Translations under genes and position numbers: made by a program
Origin: Kribbella amoyensis
GTDB taxonomy: Bacteria; Actinomycetota; Actinomycetes; Propionibacteriales; Kribbellaceae
Reading direction: 5' to 3'
Assembly: GCF_007828865.1 (NCBI RefSeq)
Contig: NZ_VIVK01000001.1
Span: 4,588,001-4,652,000, forward strand
Length of the DNA: 64,000 nt
The notes under the pieces: generated by a model
What the model was told of the DNA's origin: nothing
What the model saw: the letters and a program-made list of their open reading frames with translations, nothing else
The model's database searches: none
Shown here: positions 3,916 through 25,892 of the stretch, one piece after another
How positions within the stretch are numbered: position 1 is the stretch's first letter
Layout: the number at the start of each line of letters is the position of its first letter

Positions 3916-5207
3916 CTACGGAATCTTCGCGACGGCGTCGACGGCGTCCTCGAGGTTGCTGATGGCAATGATGTGGCCGCCGTCGCCTGGGTCGGGGTCG
4001 GGGAGGATCGATTCCGGGTCGATGAGGTAGATGGCCAGACCGTCGAGGGTGAGTCGTCGGGCGACCTCCAGGAGCATGCGCCGTGCCACGTCGTCGATCG
4101 AAGAGACGGCCGTGAGGTCGAAAACCACCCGTGGTTCTGCTGGACCCGCGTCGACGACCTCCCGCACAACTCTCTCGGCTGCGGCGAATCGGATCCCGCC
4201 CTGGAGTTGCAGCACTCTGGTCGCATCGGGCCCGGTACCCACGACGTGATGGGAGCGGACGACCGCGCGGGCCGCCGGGGGAACCTCCATGACGTGCAGG
4301 CCCATGTCGGACGAGAATCGTTCGAACAGGGAAACTCCTCGCACACTGGTCCCGTGCGAGTCCAGCCGTGGTGAGAACGTCGCAAGTCCCAGCTGGCCCG
4401 GCAGCGCACCGATGATTCCGCCGGCGACGCCGCTCTTCGCCGGAATGCCGACCTGGGTCGCCCAGTCACCGGCGGAGTCGTACATCCCGCAGGTGGCCAT
4501 GACGCTCAACACCTGGCGTACGACCGGTTCGGGCACCACTCGCCGGCCGGAGCGGGGGTTGATCCCGCGGTTCGCCAGCGTCGCGGCCATCAGGGCCAGG
4601 TCGCGGGCCGTGACGAGCAGCGAGCACTGCCGGGTGTACCCGTCGACAACGACGGAGGGTCCTCGCTGAGGATGTTGTGACTGCGGAGCATGTTGGCGAT
4701 GGCGAGATTGCGGTACGCGTGCGCCAGCTCCGAGCGGTACACGGACTCGTCCAGCTCCAGGCGACGACCGGCGAACGCCGAGAGACCGGCGACCACCCGC
4801 TCCAACCGGCCCGCGGGGTCCAGCGACTCGGGACCAACAAGGGAGTGAGTAGTGATCGCGCCGGCATTGATCATCGGGTTGCGTGGACGACCGGACCCGA
4901 CCTCGAGGGAGATCTCGTTGAACGCCTCGCCGGACGGCTCGACGCCGACCCTGGTCAGTACGGCGTCGAAGCCGCGGTCGGCCAGGGCCAGCGCGTAGGT
5001 GAAGGGCTTCGAGATCGACTGGATCGTGAACTCGACGTCGATGTCGCCGGCACCGTAGATCTCGCCGTCGACGGTGGCGAAGACCGCGGCCAGGCGTTCG
5101 GGCTCCGCGGTGGCGAGTTCGGGGATGTACCCCGCCGGAGCACCGGAGGTGTCCGCTGCGACCCCCGCCACGGCCTCGGCCAGGTAGACGGGAATGGGTG
5201 AACGCAT
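3916..5207 (-). pseudogene. glsA: Glutaminase A with C-terminal STAS domain, interrupted by a frameshift
   Basis: Glutaminase converts glutamine to glutamate and ammonia. The N-terminal part (start 5207, AAGGGG ribosome site) reads FTIQSISKPFTYAL with the catalytic SxxK, then NPMINAGAI and YRSELAHAYRNLAIANMLRS. Near 4656-4662 the frame jumps. The continuation VDGYTRQCSLLVTARDLA, AKSGVAGGI and a STAS domain (FDLTAVSSIDDVARRML) is in another frame, ending at 3916. Restoring one C to the CCT codon would give a continuous E-D-P-S-V-V-V-D-G-Y. Both halves keep all expected motifs, so this is either a recent mutation or a sequencing error. STAS-fused glutaminases are known in actinobacteria. Confidence 0.85.
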
Positions 5208-5260
5208 GCCGCTGCCCCTTCATCGGGTGGTGAGAACGCCGGCTTCCTTGGGCCTCCAGG

Positions 5261-5659
5261 TCAGGATGGTCGTTCCTTCGCCCGATCGCCGCCGATGCGT
5301 CCGAGGTGGGTGTGCTGGAACGAGTCCGGCAGCTTCAGTCCGTACCCGAGGGCGCGGTCGACACCGACGTGGAAGGCCCACGCGCACGCGAGCACACCGG
5401 CCGCCGTCGACGGCACCCCCTCGAGGACGAGTGCGGCCAGCGCCGCCAGCGCCGGAAACGCGTAGTTGTGCACCGCGTTGTACGTCGTGGCGCCGATGAC
5501 GGTCGATCGCACGTATCCCAGCATCGACAGGTCGAAGGCGAGGAACGCCGCGAAGACCACCCACCACCAGTCGGGATACAGCGCGACGGCGGCGGCGAGG
5601 GCGACGAGTGCCACCGCCCCCGCCTCGATCCGCTGGGTCACACGGACCTGGCCGGTCAT
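5261..5659 (-). CDS. DUF4260 family small membrane protein
   Basis: 132 residues from the ATG at 5659. Three or four hydrophobic helices are visible: AGAVALVALAAAVALY, WWWVVFAAFLAFDLSMLGY and FPALAALAALVLEG. The C-terminal signature WAFHVGVDRALGYGLKLPDSFQHTHLG marks DUF4260, whose function is unknown. It follows the hydrolase gene with a 4-bp gap on the same strand, so the two are probably cotranscribed. A longer form starting at 5707 would run into the hydrolase coding region and is unlikely. Confidence 0.85.
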   Translation of the reverse strand: MTGQVRVTQRIEAGAVALVALAAAVALYPDWWWVVFAAFLAFDLSMLGYVRSTVIGATTYNAVHNYAFPALAALAALVLEGVPSTAAGVLACAWAFHVGVDRALGYGLKLPDSFQHTHLGRIGGDRAKERPS

Positions 5660-22374: not shown

Positions 22375-23057
22375 CCGCGACCGACCCCAGTCCGCCGATG
22401 CGGGTCCTGCTGGTGGACGACCAGGACCTCGTCCGCGCGGGCTTCCGGATGATCCTCTCGGTGGAGCCCGACATCGAGGTGGTCGGTGAGGCCGCCGACG
22501 GCGAGAAGGCGGTCGAGCTGGCCGCCGAGCTGCGCCCCGACGTGGTGCTGATGGATGTCCAGATGCCCGGGCTGGACGGGATCGCCGCGACCCAGCGGAT
22601 CGTGGCCGCGAACGCGGGCAAGGTGGTCATCCTGACCACGTTCGACCGCGACGACTACCTGTTCGAGTCACTCGGCGCCGGGGCCAGCGGGTTCCTGCTG
22701 AAGAACACCGCGCCCGAGGACCTGGTCGAGGCGATCCAGGTGGTCCACTCCGGCCACGCCCTGCTCGCCCCCGAGGTGACCCGGCGGGTGATCAAGCGGT
22801 TCACCGGCAGCGGCGAGCGCGTCTACCGGCCGGACCTGGTGGCCGACCTGACCGAGCGCGAACGGGAGGTCCTGGGCCTGATCGCGCGCGGCCTCACCAA
22901 CACCGAGATCGCGGCCCAGCTGTTCGTCGGCGAGGCCACCGTGAAGACGCACGTCTCCCGGGTCCTGCTCAAACTCGGTCTCCGCGACCGCGTCCAGGCG
23001 GTCGTCTTCGCCTACGAGTGCGGCCTCGTCGTCCCCGGCGACGACCCAGCTTCCTGA
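22371..23057 (+). CDS. NarL/LuxR-type response regulator
   Basis: 228 residues, GTG start inside the kinase stop. The receiver domain has VLLVDDQDLVRAGF (acidic pair), phospho-acceptor Asp in DVVLMDVQMPGLDG, Thr in VVILTTF and Lys in GFLLKNTAPE. The C-terminal LuxR HTH reads LTEREREVLGLIARGLTNTEIAAQLFVGEATVKTHVSRVLLKLGLRDR. It is the cognate regulator of the kinase. Its last 390 bp are overlapped on the other strand by the open frame of the LtrA gene. Confidence 0.95.
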   Translation: MTATDPSPPMRVLLVDDQDLVRAGFRMILSVEPDIEVVGEAADGEKAVELAAELRPDVVLMDVQMPGLDGIAATQRIVAANAGKVVILTTFDRDDYLFESLGAGASGFLLKNTAPEDLVEAIQVVHSGHALLAPEVTRRVIKRFTGSGERVYRPDLVADLTEREREVLGLIARGLTNTEIAAQLFVGEATVKTHVSRVLLKLGLRDRVQAVVFAYECGLVVPGDDPAS

Positions 23058-24209
23058 TCCGATCCCGGTCAGCACGATCACCACCACGGCCACTAGCGCC
23101 GTCAACGCCACCACGGCCGGCGCGGTGACCTGCTCGGCAAGCAGCGGCAGCCCCGCGAGAACGGCGACCGAGCCGAGGACGACGCGCGGCCTCAGTACGG
23201 GTGTCGTCACGATCGGCCGGTGGACGGCCCACAGCAACAGTAGGAACGCCCCCGCCGGTCCGGCGACCGTGTAGCTCAGCAGTATGGGGGAGAGCTCGTG
23301 ACTGCTCGGCTGGACAGCCACCTCAAGGCCCGCACCGACAGCGGCGAGCGCGGCGAAGATCCCGTAGTGCCCGTACCCCCACCGGTACGAGCGCTCGCGC
23401 CGTTCACTCAGTCCACCCGCGGCCGGCTGGAGGAAGTAGAGCCACCACAGCGCGAAGAGCAGGACGAGCCCGGACGCGGCGATCAGGACGACGGAGCCGT
23501 TCACGTCCCCGCGCGTCACGGCGACCTGCACGCCCCTGGTTGCCGCGAGCACGCTTTCGCCGAGCAGGATGATCGCGAACAGGCCGTACCGCTCCGCGAT
23601 GTGGTGCGGGTGCCAGGTCGTCGGGTGGGTTCGCTCCGCCCACAGGGGGACCACTAGTTCGAGCAGAACCAGCAGCAGGAACACCGGCAGCTGGAGCGCT
23701 CCGCCGGCCAGGACGAGGCCGAGGATCCACCCGAGTTGGGCGAACGCGATCCCGCCCGCGTACCGCAGCGCCGTCCGCCGTCCGGCCTGATCCTCCAGCG
23801 CGGCCCGTACCCACTGCGCGACCAGGGCGACCCGCATGATCAGGTAGCCGAGCAGCACGGCCCGGTAGTCCCCGTCCGCGGCCGCCGCCGGTACACCCGC
23901 GGCCAGGACCAGGACACCGCCCATCTGCACCATCGTCAGCAACCGGTACGGGACGTCGTCGATGGCGTACGACGAGGCGAACCAGGTGAAGTTCATCCAC
24001 GCCCACCAGATCGCGAAGAACACCTGCAGGAACGGCACCAGCCCGTCGACGGCGTGCCCGGCCTCGATCTCATGGGCCAGCTCGGCCGTGACGGCGGCGA
24101 CGGCCACCACGAAGGTCAGATCGAACAGCAGCTCCAGCGGGCTCGCCGTTCGATGCGGCTCGTCGATCGCGCGGGCGGTCATCCGGATCCTGATCCTGGC
24201 TACGGGCAC
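22668..24209 (-). CDS. Low-temperature-requirement A (LtrA) family membrane protein with long C-terminal overhang
   Basis: 513 residues from a GTG at 24209 behind GAGAGGAGT. Residues 1-385 are a normal LtrA protein: RTASPLELLFDLTFVVAV, FFAIWWAWMNFTWFASSY, HHIAERYGLFAIILLGESVLA and many helices. After the last helix (VVVIVLTGIG), the frame does not stop but runs a further 130 codons antisense through the response regulator gene, giving a charged soluble tail with no family match. Family members are usually near 370-430 residues. Function unknown. The end may be mis-set by lost stop or frameshift. Confidence 0.8.
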   Translation of the reverse strand: MPVARIRIRMTARAIDEPHRTASPLELLFDLTFVVAVAAVTAELAHEIEAGHAVDGLVPFLQVFFAIWWAWMNFTWFASSYAIDDVPYRLLTMVQMGGVLVLAAGVPAAAADGDYRAVLLGYLIMRVALVAQWVRAALEDQAGRRTALRYAGGIAFAQLGWILGLVLAGGALQLPVFLLLVLLELVVPLWAERTHPTTWHPHHIAERYGLFAIILLGESVLAATRGVQVAVTRGDVNGSVVLIAASGLVLLFALWWLYFLQPAAGGLSERRERSYRWGYGHYGIFAALAAVGAGLEVAVQPSSHELSPILLSYTVAGPAGAFLLLLWAVHRPIVTTPVLRPRVVLGSVAVLAGLPLLAEQVTAPAVVALTALVAVVVIVLTGIGSGSWVVAGDDEAALVGEDDRLDAVAETEFEQDPGDVRLHGGLADEQLGRDLGVGEAARDQAQDLPFALGQVGHQVRPVDALAAAGEPLDHPPGHLGGEQGVAGVDHLDRLDQVLGRGVLQQEPAGPGAE

Positions 24210-24359
24210 GGTGTGACTCCTCTCGGTCCGTCCACACAGACCGGACAGACCGGCGATTTGTGACCGGCGACTTTCCTGCAGTGGTCACAACGCGGCCTGC
24301 TGTCCTGTCTTAGCTGGCACCAGGGCGGCCATCAGGTGCCCGCGGACAGGAGGACGAGC

Positions 24360-24383
24360 ATGCAGAGCATGGTGTCGCGATGA
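24360..24383 (+). CDS. Seven-codon leader ORF (MQSMVSR)
   Basis: ATG at 24360 follows AGGAGG at 24348-24353, the only strong ribosome site in this region. The ORF encodes seven residues and its TGA overlaps the next ATG (ATGA at 24380-24383). It is thus the entry point of a translationally coupled chain leading to the sigma factor gene. No attenuation codon run or terminator hairpin was seen; a simple coupling role is inferred. Confidence 0.5.
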   Translation: MQSMVSR

Positions 24384-24601
24384 GCACCGGACCCGGCGAG
24401 TTCCTGCACGGCCTGGAGGTTGAGGTGGAAGCCGATCTCGGCATGATCGCGGACAGCCGCCCGGAGGAGGCCGCGGCCGCACCGGTCACCGAGTGGCTGG
24501 TCGACCCGGCCGAGGTCGAGCGCGAGCAGATCGGTCTGCGCAGCCTGCTGGGAGCCGTCGAGGCGTTGGAGGGCGACGCGTACCACCACGGCGACGTATG
24601 A
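24380..24601 (+). CDS. Small acidic hypothetical protein upstream of ECF41 sigma gene
   Basis: 73 residues, strongly acidic, no membrane helix or signal peptide, not recognised. Codon third positions are almost all G or C, as expected of real genes here. The ATG overlaps the stop of a 7-codon leader, and its own stop overlaps the sigma factor ATG (ATGA at 24598). Reading VTEWLVDPAEVEREQIGLRSLLGAVEALEG suggests one or two amphipathic helices. Its location suggests a regulator or partner of the sigma factor, but nothing proves it. Confidence 0.6.
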   Translation: MSTGPGEFLHGLEVEVEADLGMIADSRPEEAAAAPVTEWLVDPAEVEREQIGLRSLLGAVEALEGDAYHHGDV

Positions 24602-25521
24602 CCGAAGATGTGGGAGACGGCGAACCGGCGGACGGCGGAGGAGCGCGGGTGACCGACTGGGAGGACCTCGAAGAGGCGGCGAAGGTGTTCGCGGAGTTGC
24701 GGCCGCGGTTGTTCGGCATCGCGTACCGGATGCTGGCCAGCGCGAGCGAGGCCGAGGACCTGGTCCAGGACGTCTGGCTGCGCTGGCAGGCGACCGACCG
24801 CGGCGTCGTCACCAACCCGGGGGCATACCTGGCGACGGCCACCACGCGGCTCGCGATCAACGTGGCCAAGTCCGCCCGGGTCCGCCGGGAGACGTACGTC
24901 GGTCCGTGGTTGCCCGAGCCGGTCGACACCAGCAGCGACCCGCTCCTCGGTGCGGAACGCGGTGAGGCGCTGGAGTTCGCCGTACTGCTCCTGCTGGAAC
25001 GCCTGTCGCCCAACGAGCGAGCCGCGTACGTCCTGCGGGAGGCGTTCGACTACCCGTACTCGGACATCGCCGAGATCCTCCAGACCAGCGAACCCGCGGT
25101 CCGCCAGCTCGTCAGCCGCGCCCGCAAGCAGGTCACCGGCGATCGGCGGAAGCCGGTGAGCGGTGTTGAGCAGCGGGAACTCCTGAGCGCCTTCGTGACC
25201 GCGGCGAGGTCGGGTGACCTGGCCGCCCTGGAGAAGTTGTTCGCGCCGGACGTGAAGAGCCTGTCCGACGGGGGCGGCATCGTCCGGGCCTCGCGGATCC
25301 CGGTGCTCGGCGCGGACCGGGTCGCGCGGTACATCGCTGCCTTCAAGGACCGCTTCTGGGTGGACGTCGACGTACGGTTCGCCACGGTCAACGGTCAGGC
25401 GGCCGCGCTGTTGCGGCACGACGGGGAGACCTTCGCGGTCCTCACCGTCCACGGTTCCGCAGAGGGGATCGAGCAGGTGCTGTGGATGATGAACCCGGGC
25501 AAGCTGGGGGCGGTTGGGTGA
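24598..25521 (+). CDS. ECF41-family RNA polymerase sigma factor (SigJ-like) with SnoaL-like C-terminal domain
   Basis: 307 residues from the ATG at 24598; a GTG at 24649 is an alternative. Sigma region 2 is FAELRPRLFGIAYRMLASASEAEDLVQDVWLRW, the ECF41 linker hallmark WLPEP follows, and region 4 is ERAAYVLREAFDYPYSDIAEILQTSEPAVRQLVSRARKQV. The extra NTF2/SnoaL-like domain starts near residue 195 and has the family's DGGG and NPGKL (normally NPDKL) motifs, which are known to tune sigma activity without an anti-sigma factor. The usual partner gene (COE-type oxidoreductase) is absent; overlapping small genes flank it instead. Confidence 0.93.
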   Translation: MTEDVGDGEPADGGGARVTDWEDLEEAAKVFAELRPRLFGIAYRMLASASEAEDLVQDVWLRWQATDRGVVTNPGAYLATATTRLAINVAKSARVRRETYVGPWLPEPVDTSSDPLLGAERGEALEFAVLLLLERLSPNERAAYVLREAFDYPYSDIAEILQTSEPAVRQLVSRARKQVTGDRRKPVSGVEQRELLSAFVTAARSGDLAALEKLFAPDVKSLSDGGGIVRASRIPVLGADRVARYIAAFKDRFWVDVDVRFATVNGQAAALLRHDGETFAVLTVHGSAEGIEQVLWMMNPGKLGAVG

Positions 25522-25892
25522 CCACGCGCGAGGTCGTTCTCCGCTTCGCCGAGGCGTGCGCGGCGGGGGACACCGAGGCGCTGGTCCGGGTACTGGCCGT
25601 CGACGTCGAGCTCGTCGTCGACAGCGGTGGCCGTGTCCTCGCACCGCTGCGCCCGATCCGCGGGTGGTCCGCGAGTGCCGAACGAGTCATCGCCTTGTTC
25701 GCCGCGCGCCCTGCTGCCGAAGTGGAGCTCGCGGACGTCAACGGCGGCACGGGCCTCGTCGTACTCCGCGCCGGGGTGACCGAGGCGGTGATCAGCCTCG
25801 CCGTCGACGGTCCGCTCGTCACCGCCGTCTGGATCGTGCTCAACCCGGACAAGCTGCGCCACTGGAACCACCGGAGTCCGTCCCACGGATGA
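25518..25892 (+). CDS. Free-standing SnoaL/NTF2-like protein resembling the ECF41 C-terminal domain
   Basis: 124 residues from a GTG that overlaps the sigma stop by 4 bp (GTGA). TTREVVLRFAEACAAGDTEALVRVLAVDVELVVDSGGRVLAPLRPIRG matches the layout of the sigma factor's own tail: DSGGR aligns with DGGG and VLNPDKL is the perfect ECF41 end motif. It looks like a detached paralogue of that tail. It may act in trans on the sigma factor or on its ligand; no catalytic residues are assigned. Confidence 0.8.
   Translation: MTTREVVLRFAEACAAGDTEALVRVLAVDVELVVDSGGRVLAPLRPIRGWSASAERVIALFAARPAAEVELADVNGGTGLVVLRAGVTEAVISLAVDGPLVTAVWIVLNPDKLRHWNHRSPSHG

Follow-up and report, generated by a model that had tools for sequence, protein, structure and literature searches.

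A Kribbella ECF41 sigma factor operon in which the regulatory domain may be divided between the sigma factor and a separate tail protein

Introduction

The closest described relatives of the locus reported here are the ECF41 sigma factors, such as Ecf41 of Bacillus licheniformis and Rhodobacter sphaeroides and SigJ of Mycobacterium tuberculosis, with which it shares the sigma core, the WLPEP linker, the SnoaL tail, a promoter of the TGTCACA type with an operon behind it and, in its relatives, a neighbouring gene of the NmrA/epimerase type. Such a neighbour is not found beside every published ECF41 factor (PMC3426412, table 4). The NPDKL box in the ECF41 tail links to the YVGPWLPEP linker (PMC7730460). 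Cutting off the distal part of the tail raised activity about 20-fold for the factor of B. licheniformis and about 120-fold for that of R. sphaeroides, whereas removal of the whole tail inactivates ECF41 (PMC3426412). The effect of the distal truncation suggests that the part bearing the box inhibits. Unlike these ECF41 factors, the sigma factor described here has a degenerate NPDKL box in its fused tail, the intact box being found in a second protein.

Sigma factors with a separate protein partner are known from other groups. SigG1 of Streptomyces tsukubaensis (ECF56) is likewise a sigma factor with a SnoaL_2 tail and has a separate, co-transcribed protein, RsfG, which antagonizes it (PMC7730460). 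RsfG is described in the available passages of that source as having no conserved Pfam domain and SigG1 as having no NPDKL, whereas the second protein reported here is itself an ECF41 tail. In SigO-RsoA, the sigma function is also distributed over two proteins; however, these contribute sigma4 and sigma2 separately and both are needed (PMC10028694), whereas the present locus combines a complete core with a regulatory-domain partner, and a sigma2 remnant occurs only in partners at other loci. Classical pairs of ECF sigma and anti-sigma factors share with it a co-expressed small regulator and an autoregulated operon (PMC3426412), but the regulator proposed here would be derived from a sigma factor of the ECF41 family itself, not from an anti-sigma family. 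A literature search, which was incomplete, turned up neither stand-alone ECF41 tails nor decayed ECF41 partners, although earlier ECF41 papers may mention them, and no papers on ECF factors that are degenerate or lack region 4. Such a locus bears on how sigma factors are controlled by fused ECF tails and on the origin of sigma/anti-sigma pairs.

Results

Layout of the Locus and Start Sites

The locus is a piece of the 8.12 Mb genome of Kribbella amoyensis and was analysed in a window of 64,000 nucleotides, which is the whole stretch of DNA under study. A leader, a small acidic protein (p73), the sigma factor, and a free-standing tail protein (free tail) follow one another in an overlapping chain (Table 1). 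The coordinates, overlaps, and motifs of this chain in the original prediction, which had been made from the letters alone, are correct in the sequence, although the second ATGA, which joins p73 to the sigma factor, is present only when ATG 24598 is taken as the sigma start. The prediction had also given the leader the only strong ribosome site of the chain; this does not hold, since a Shine-Dalgarno sequence (GGAGGAG) is located at 24637-24643, 5 bases 5' of GTG 24649, the 18th codon of the sigma's ATG reading. Homology to the best matches within the genus starts at about residue 10-23 of the sigma query and, together with this ribosome site, suggests that GTG 24649 may be the true start, in which case the second ATGA would no longer be a start-stop overlap. 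The GTGA that joins the free tail to the sigma gene is present here but is a local detail, as the junction at other loci is TGATG or a gap and the free tail often has a Shine-Dalgarno sequence of its own.

Table 1. Features of the locus, in coordinates of the window.
Feature	Position	Strand	Remarks
LtrA membrane protein gene (low temperature requirement A)	22668..24209	-	Pfam PF06772, E 2e-95
ECF41-type promoter facing LtrA	24238..24264	-	GTCACA-N15-CGGTC; divergent site
Operon ECF41-type promoter	24284..24313	+	GTCACA-N15-CTGTCTTAG; exact match to the searched pattern
7-codon leader MQSMVSR	24360..24383	+	ATG 24360, TGA 24383; probable oxidoreductase stub
p73, 73-aa acidic protein	24380..24601	+	joined to the leader by ATGA; predicted helical hairpin, no known family
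ECF41 sigma factor, SigJ-like	24598..25521	+	YVGPWLPEP, DGGG, NPGKL; alternative start GTG 24649
Free ECF41 regulatory tail, NTF2/SnoaL fold, 124 aa	25518..25892	+	DSGG, NPDKL; proposed trans-acting partner

The Sigma Factor and the Free Tail

The sigma factor scored above the curated cut-offs of both TIGR02957 (339.1 bits; cut-off 323.25) and PRK09636 (282.3 bits; cut-off 271), which upholds its assignment to ECF41. YVGPWLPEP forms its linker between sigma2 and sigma4, and its C-terminal tail is SnoaL-like and contains DGGG, with a SnoaL_2 match that is below the Pfam cut-off (21 vs 27 bits). In place of an intact NPDKL, the terminal box of the fused tail reads NPGKL. The protein is a member of ECF41 by core, linker, and profile, and the box is the point of difference. 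The motifs DGGG and NPGKL in this tail and DSGGR and NPDKL in the 124-aa protein, as first noticed, were borne out by the sequence.

The 124-aa protein matched the SigJ profile over the tail region with an E value of 4e-21, compared with 1e-4 for SnoaL_2. When a free-tail profile was searched against PDB sequences, SigJ (5xe7) was the best match (E 1.9e-10), followed by a steroid isomerase (7e-4). The AlphaFold model is NTF2-like (pLDDT 87.5), and a fold search placed SigJ 5xe7 third, among designed NTF2-like proteins and isomerases. Invariant residues of the free tails include D35, G37-G38, N75-G76, N109-P110, and K112-L113. Judged by these profile comparisons, the protein is an ECF41 tail and not an unrelated SnoaL enzyme, in agreement with the original prediction. 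No sigma domain was found in the free tail of the window or in its open frame; it does not supply a sigma domain as the second protein of a two-subunit sigma factor does, and it also lacks the linker.

A Module Conserved in Kribbella

The locus is a trimmed form of a module that is conserved in Kribbella. The full order, consisting of an NmrA-like oxidoreductase, p73, the ECF41 sigma factor, and the free tail, was found with the genes adjacent in 16 of 38 Kribbella genomes (gene orders were counted with sigma matches of at least 58% identity and tail matches of E < 1e-35). Many relatives share the synteny of the window plus one gene, in the form of a divergent LtrA gene, an NmrA/NAD-binding oxidoreductase, p73, the sigma factor, and the free tail, and several also have a response regulator before the module and two ABC transporter genes after it. 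The comparison with relatives that had been suggested for the four-ORF order thus returned a recurrent four-gene module, with the oxidoreductase in the place of the leader. Among the 38 genomes, the oxidoreductase was present in 34 (E up to 1e-60), p73 in 31, and the free tail in 25, so that most relatives keep the small ORFs. As the 124-aa protein is also nearer to ECF41 tails than to SnoaL enzymes, neither of the two outcomes named beforehand as refuting the original prediction was observed. In a chosen sample of pairs, the median dN/dS was 0.26 for p73 (10 pairs, one of which gave 1.5) and 0.17 for the free tail (8 pairs), compared with 0.15 for the oxidoreductase and 0.14 for the sigma factor. 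The occurrence of p73 and the free tail across the genus and the purifying selection on both indicate that these small genes are not there by chance.

The module is not uniform. The sigma gene is inverted and the free tail missing in three genomes (L050, L055, and L056), parts of the module are scattered in further genomes of the genus, and some of these scattered parts are also preceded by promoters. Several genomes have the sigma factor without any free tail, and in G041 the free tail follows the oxidoreductase and p73, with the sigma factor located elsewhere. In G019 (L226, around 4983-5330) a free tail is present, and searches of that genome found no orthologous sigma factor, p73, or oxidoreductase.

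Promoters and the Lost Oxidoreductase

The operon promoter is located 76 bp 5' of the leader ATG, and in 16 of 19 relatives the motif lies 65-81 bp before the oxidoreductase start, the other three having no match to the pattern. Across the 8.12 Mb genome, the pattern GTCACA-N15-CBGTCYTAG matched exactly at two sites and with one mismatch at another two, and the reversed control pattern had one match at up to one mismatch. Compared with the TGTCACA-N16-CGTC form, the site at 24284 reads GTCACA-N15-CTGTC, a form common to the relatives, in which the first base of TGTCACA is G and CGTC reads TGTC. The divergent LtrA gene has an ECF41-type promoter of its own, and 16 of the 18 relatives scanned have a similar site (by a looser pattern) no more than 200 bp upstream of LtrA; these sites make LtrA a likely member of the ECF41 regulon. 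The passages of the ECF41 literature consulted contain no mention of LtrA in this role. At 22668-23057, the LtrA frame extends antisense into a response regulator gene; the ORF is 513 aa long and its Pfam domain ends at residue 378.

No decarboxylase, oxidoreductase, or epimerase neighbour was found in the window, where the leader occupies the position at which relatives carry the oxidoreductase. The leader shares its 5' layout and start position with the oxidoreductase of the relatives, and its codons 2-5 were identical to those of the oxidoreductase at 7-9 of 12 bases in 17 of 20 homologues, a match that was equalled at 0.14% of the positions along the gene for the best two homologues. From promoter spacing, start position, and codon matches, the leader is probably the stub of a lost NmrA-like oxidoreductase gene, which would feed ribosomes to p73 through the ATGA. 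Two genomes, G000 and G039, have lost the oxidoreductase from the operon, and G039 has no such leader. The leader was also considered as a conserved regulatory peptide, which was rejected because relatives have a full oxidoreductase at this position and because of its absence from G039.

The second exact promoter match in the genome stands before an oxidoreductase paralog on contig C6. This gene was considered as the relocated gene of the operon and rejected, since the operon oxidoreductases of the nearest relatives form a branch (100/96) that does not include it and since it adjoins a cupin gene, as in other genomes. Its own position in the oxidoreductase tree is not supported, and it appears to be an older paralog with a cupin gene as its neighbour. 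On this contig (L066, 5204-6479) the oxidoreductase is followed by the cupin gene, and the same pair was seen in six other genomes inspected, three of them with p73 behind it.

Occurrence of p73

No match to p73 was found in Pfam or NCBIfam. AlphaFold predicted an acidic helical hairpin (pLDDT 86.7), for which the best match in a fold search of the PDB had an E value of 1.8. Within the 38 genomes of the genus, p73 is confined to those with the oxidoreductase, which it follows in 28 of 31 genomes; a cupin gene stands between the two in G004, G024, and G050. It directly precedes the sigma gene in 18 of these 31 genomes, and one copy stands alone behind an ECF41-type promoter (L163). A search of 391 genomes added 3 of the order outside the genus that carry p73, one of them at E 1e-4 only, and the gene was also present in 14 of 38 non-Kribbella loci called free-tail loci. 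Thus, p73 tracks the oxidoreductase more than the sigma factor, and this tie suggests, as a guess, that it serves the oxidoreductase or its target. It may also be part of the switch, as the original prediction had it. Near the oxidoreductase outside Kribbella, p73 was observed at L221 and L223 (order relatives G058 and G035); G058, an Actinopolymorpha, also has a sigma factor and a partner with a sigma2 remnant close to p73.

Ancestry of the Free Tail

The free tail had initially been read as a detached copy of the tail of its own sigma factor. A tree of 93 tails separated the free tails of the genus, all 25 on one branch (97/84), from the own tails, all 38 on another (100/97), and a duplicate of the neighbour's tail was rejected on this basis. 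The layout in the original prediction is real, whereas the single ribosome site, a general GTGA coupling, and the copy of the own tail had to be given up. A paralog with NPEKL..W was rejected as the donor as well; it adjoins the free tails in the genus-only tree (87/67), but a wider sample places the partners of other families closer. The tail trees draw on some 120 columns, and the wide ones were built by a quick method with no bootstrap. In a wider tree of this kind, the free tails of the genus fell within a branch of 57 rows together with partners of other Actinomycetota, many of which still have a sigma2 remnant, and with no own tail.

A tail-profile scan of named genomes gave 122 confirmed stretches, of which the best 80 were kept; ten Kribbella loci were left out, resulting in 70 non-Kribbella loci (L303 and L306 come from the same Streptomyces strain, as separate contigs). 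Among these best 80 of 122, the partners at the 70 loci comprised 13 intact ECF41 factors (Rhodococcus, Agromyces, Amnibacterium, Cryobacterium, Paenibacillus, and Paludisphaera), 14 degenerate sigma2-sigma4 cores, all from Streptomyces, 35 with a sigma2 remnant, 2 with a sigma4 remnant, and 6 in which no core was seen. Most partners of Streptomyces in this set retained a degenerate core, most of those of Streptosporangiaceae consisted of a sigma2 remnant plus the tail, and the remnants of the set scored 28-65 bits against the core profile (E 5e-7 or better). In Kribbella, 3 of the 25 free tails (G001, G018, and G020) have a sigma2 remnant at 25-34 bits, and none was seen in the other 22, that of the window included. 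Of the 57 loci among the best 80 of 122 whose partner is non-intact, 39 had an intact ECF41 factor (>250 bits) within 2.5 kb; for the remaining 18, no intact main sigma factor was found at this distance in the stretch covered. These main sigma factors and that of the window group on a single branch (85 rows, SH-aLRT 97, quick tree). As far as their sequences tell, the partners form a graded series from intact ECF41 through a degenerate core and a sigma2 remnant plus tail to the tail alone.

In the same best 80 of 122, the promoter motif occurred 20-220 bp upstream of 24 of 63 tail-bearing genes with a sigma2 part and of none of the 13 intact partners, at an expectation of 0.019 per 200 bp. The partner itself is thus probably made under an ECF41 promoter, i.e., under feedback.

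Division of WLPEP and NPDKL

Among the best 80 of 122 stretches, WLPEP was absent from all 57 non-intact partners, six of which had no core that could be seen, and was present in all 40 nearby intact main sigma factors; as these were taken at >250 bits and those below were left out, the set may favour keepers of WLPEP. Of the 38 main sigma factors in this set whose box could be scored, 30 had no acidic residue there and 8 had one; in the other 2 the box was cut off. The eight with an acidic residue beside a non-intact partner belong to Herbidospora (six) and Streptomyces (two). In the intact pair of Cryobacterium, both members have NPDKL. The composition of the partner boxes is biased because the pattern of the wide scan contained NP[DAK]K.

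In Kribbella, the acidic box residue is missing from all 24 sigma factors of genomes with a free tail, whereas 8 of 14 sigma factors in genomes without a free tail keep it and six have lost it. The association between loss of the residue and the free tail gave a Fisher p of 6e-5 with genomes counted regardless of kinship; the independent pairs, 3 on well-supported branches and 6 on all branches, included no discordant one and are too few for significance. This count leaves out the outgroup paralogs, G025, and the G047 fragment. NPDKL was found in 21 of the 25 free tails of the genus, the other four having no Asp, and in a chosen set of 30 other ECF41 tails the acidic residue was present in 24. 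The motif pattern favours the action in trans that had been put forward at the outset; the docking, its sign, and the signal are what we infer beyond it.

Discussion

Read from its motifs, the locus is a clear ECF41 system in which the regulatory contact appears to be divided between two proteins. We consider it reasonably probable (about 0.6) that it represents an autoregulated ECF41 module with a regulatory domain shared between the sigma factor and a free tail that docks in trans. The operon would once have begun with an NmrA-like oxidoreductase, a usual type of ECF41 target, which would here have been deleted down to the 7-codon leader. Because of the broken box, the sigma factor would be poorly restrained by its own tail, and the free tail can supply the box by docking its NPDKL on the linker of the sigma factor. 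Docking would most likely keep the sigma factor less active until it is released by a signal, which may be a ligand in the pocket of the free tail. Since the free tail is the last gene of the operon of its sigma factor, the proposed outcome is a delayed negative feedback. On the evolutionary side, we lean slightly toward the view that a large group of Actinomycetota had two adjacent ECF41 sigma factors, one of which decayed into a dedicated trans-regulator of the other, with WLPEP and NPDKL split by reciprocal loss. The free tail would be the last remnant of a second ECF41 gene beside the first, and the degenerate cores of Streptomyces, the sigma2 remnants of Streptosporangiaceae, and the tail alone in most Kribbella would represent steps of this decay.

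The sign of the interaction could also be the reverse, with the partner as a positive subunit that docks on the sigma factor and is needed for binding of RNA polymerase or for promoter activation. One operon would provide a fixed ratio of the two proteins, split sigma factors that need both parts are known (SigO-RsoA, PMC10028694), and the loss of ECF41 activity on removal of the full fused extension indicates that parts of the tail can be needed (PMC3426412). However, truncation of the distal tail raised activity in the same study (PMC3426412), and the Kribbella genomes that have the sigma factor and no free tail also render this role unlikely. It appears somewhat more doubtful still that the free tail is a SnoaL/NTF2 enzyme acting on the small molecule of the oxidoreductase, its kinship to ECF41 being history only. 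Its fold does resemble that of ketosteroid isomerase and SnoaL enzymes, it shares an operon with the oxidoreductase in relatives, and in G041 it follows the oxidoreductase and p73 away from the sigma factor, but the motifs of ECF41 tails (D.GG, NG, and NP.KL) are among its invariant residues, and an enzyme would leave the loss of the acidic residue in the sigma factor unexplained. The two losses of the oxidoreductase from the operon and the scattering of parts in other genomes would fit a free tail and p73 that are passive relics or hitchhikers of operon decay, which is nevertheless very improbable given the purifying selection on both, the conservation of motifs, and the promoters before some scattered parts.

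If this reading is true, a regulatory domain that had been fused has become a separate regulator again, by steps that are still to be seen in living genomes, and the partner series would display a route from transcription factor to regulatory subunit. The natural split of the contact motifs makes docking testable by single-residue swaps. Such partners may be annotated as SnoaL enzymes or as fragments of sigma factors, as we expect, and the system could thus be overlooked.

The genus also contains a second ECF41-like sigma factor (L031-L044), which is 50-63% identical over the core. Its tail ends after the first stretch in all 14 cases inspected, many ending like LLTADLAA, and these short-tailed sigma factors resemble the artificially truncated, hyperactive ECF41 of Wecke 2012.
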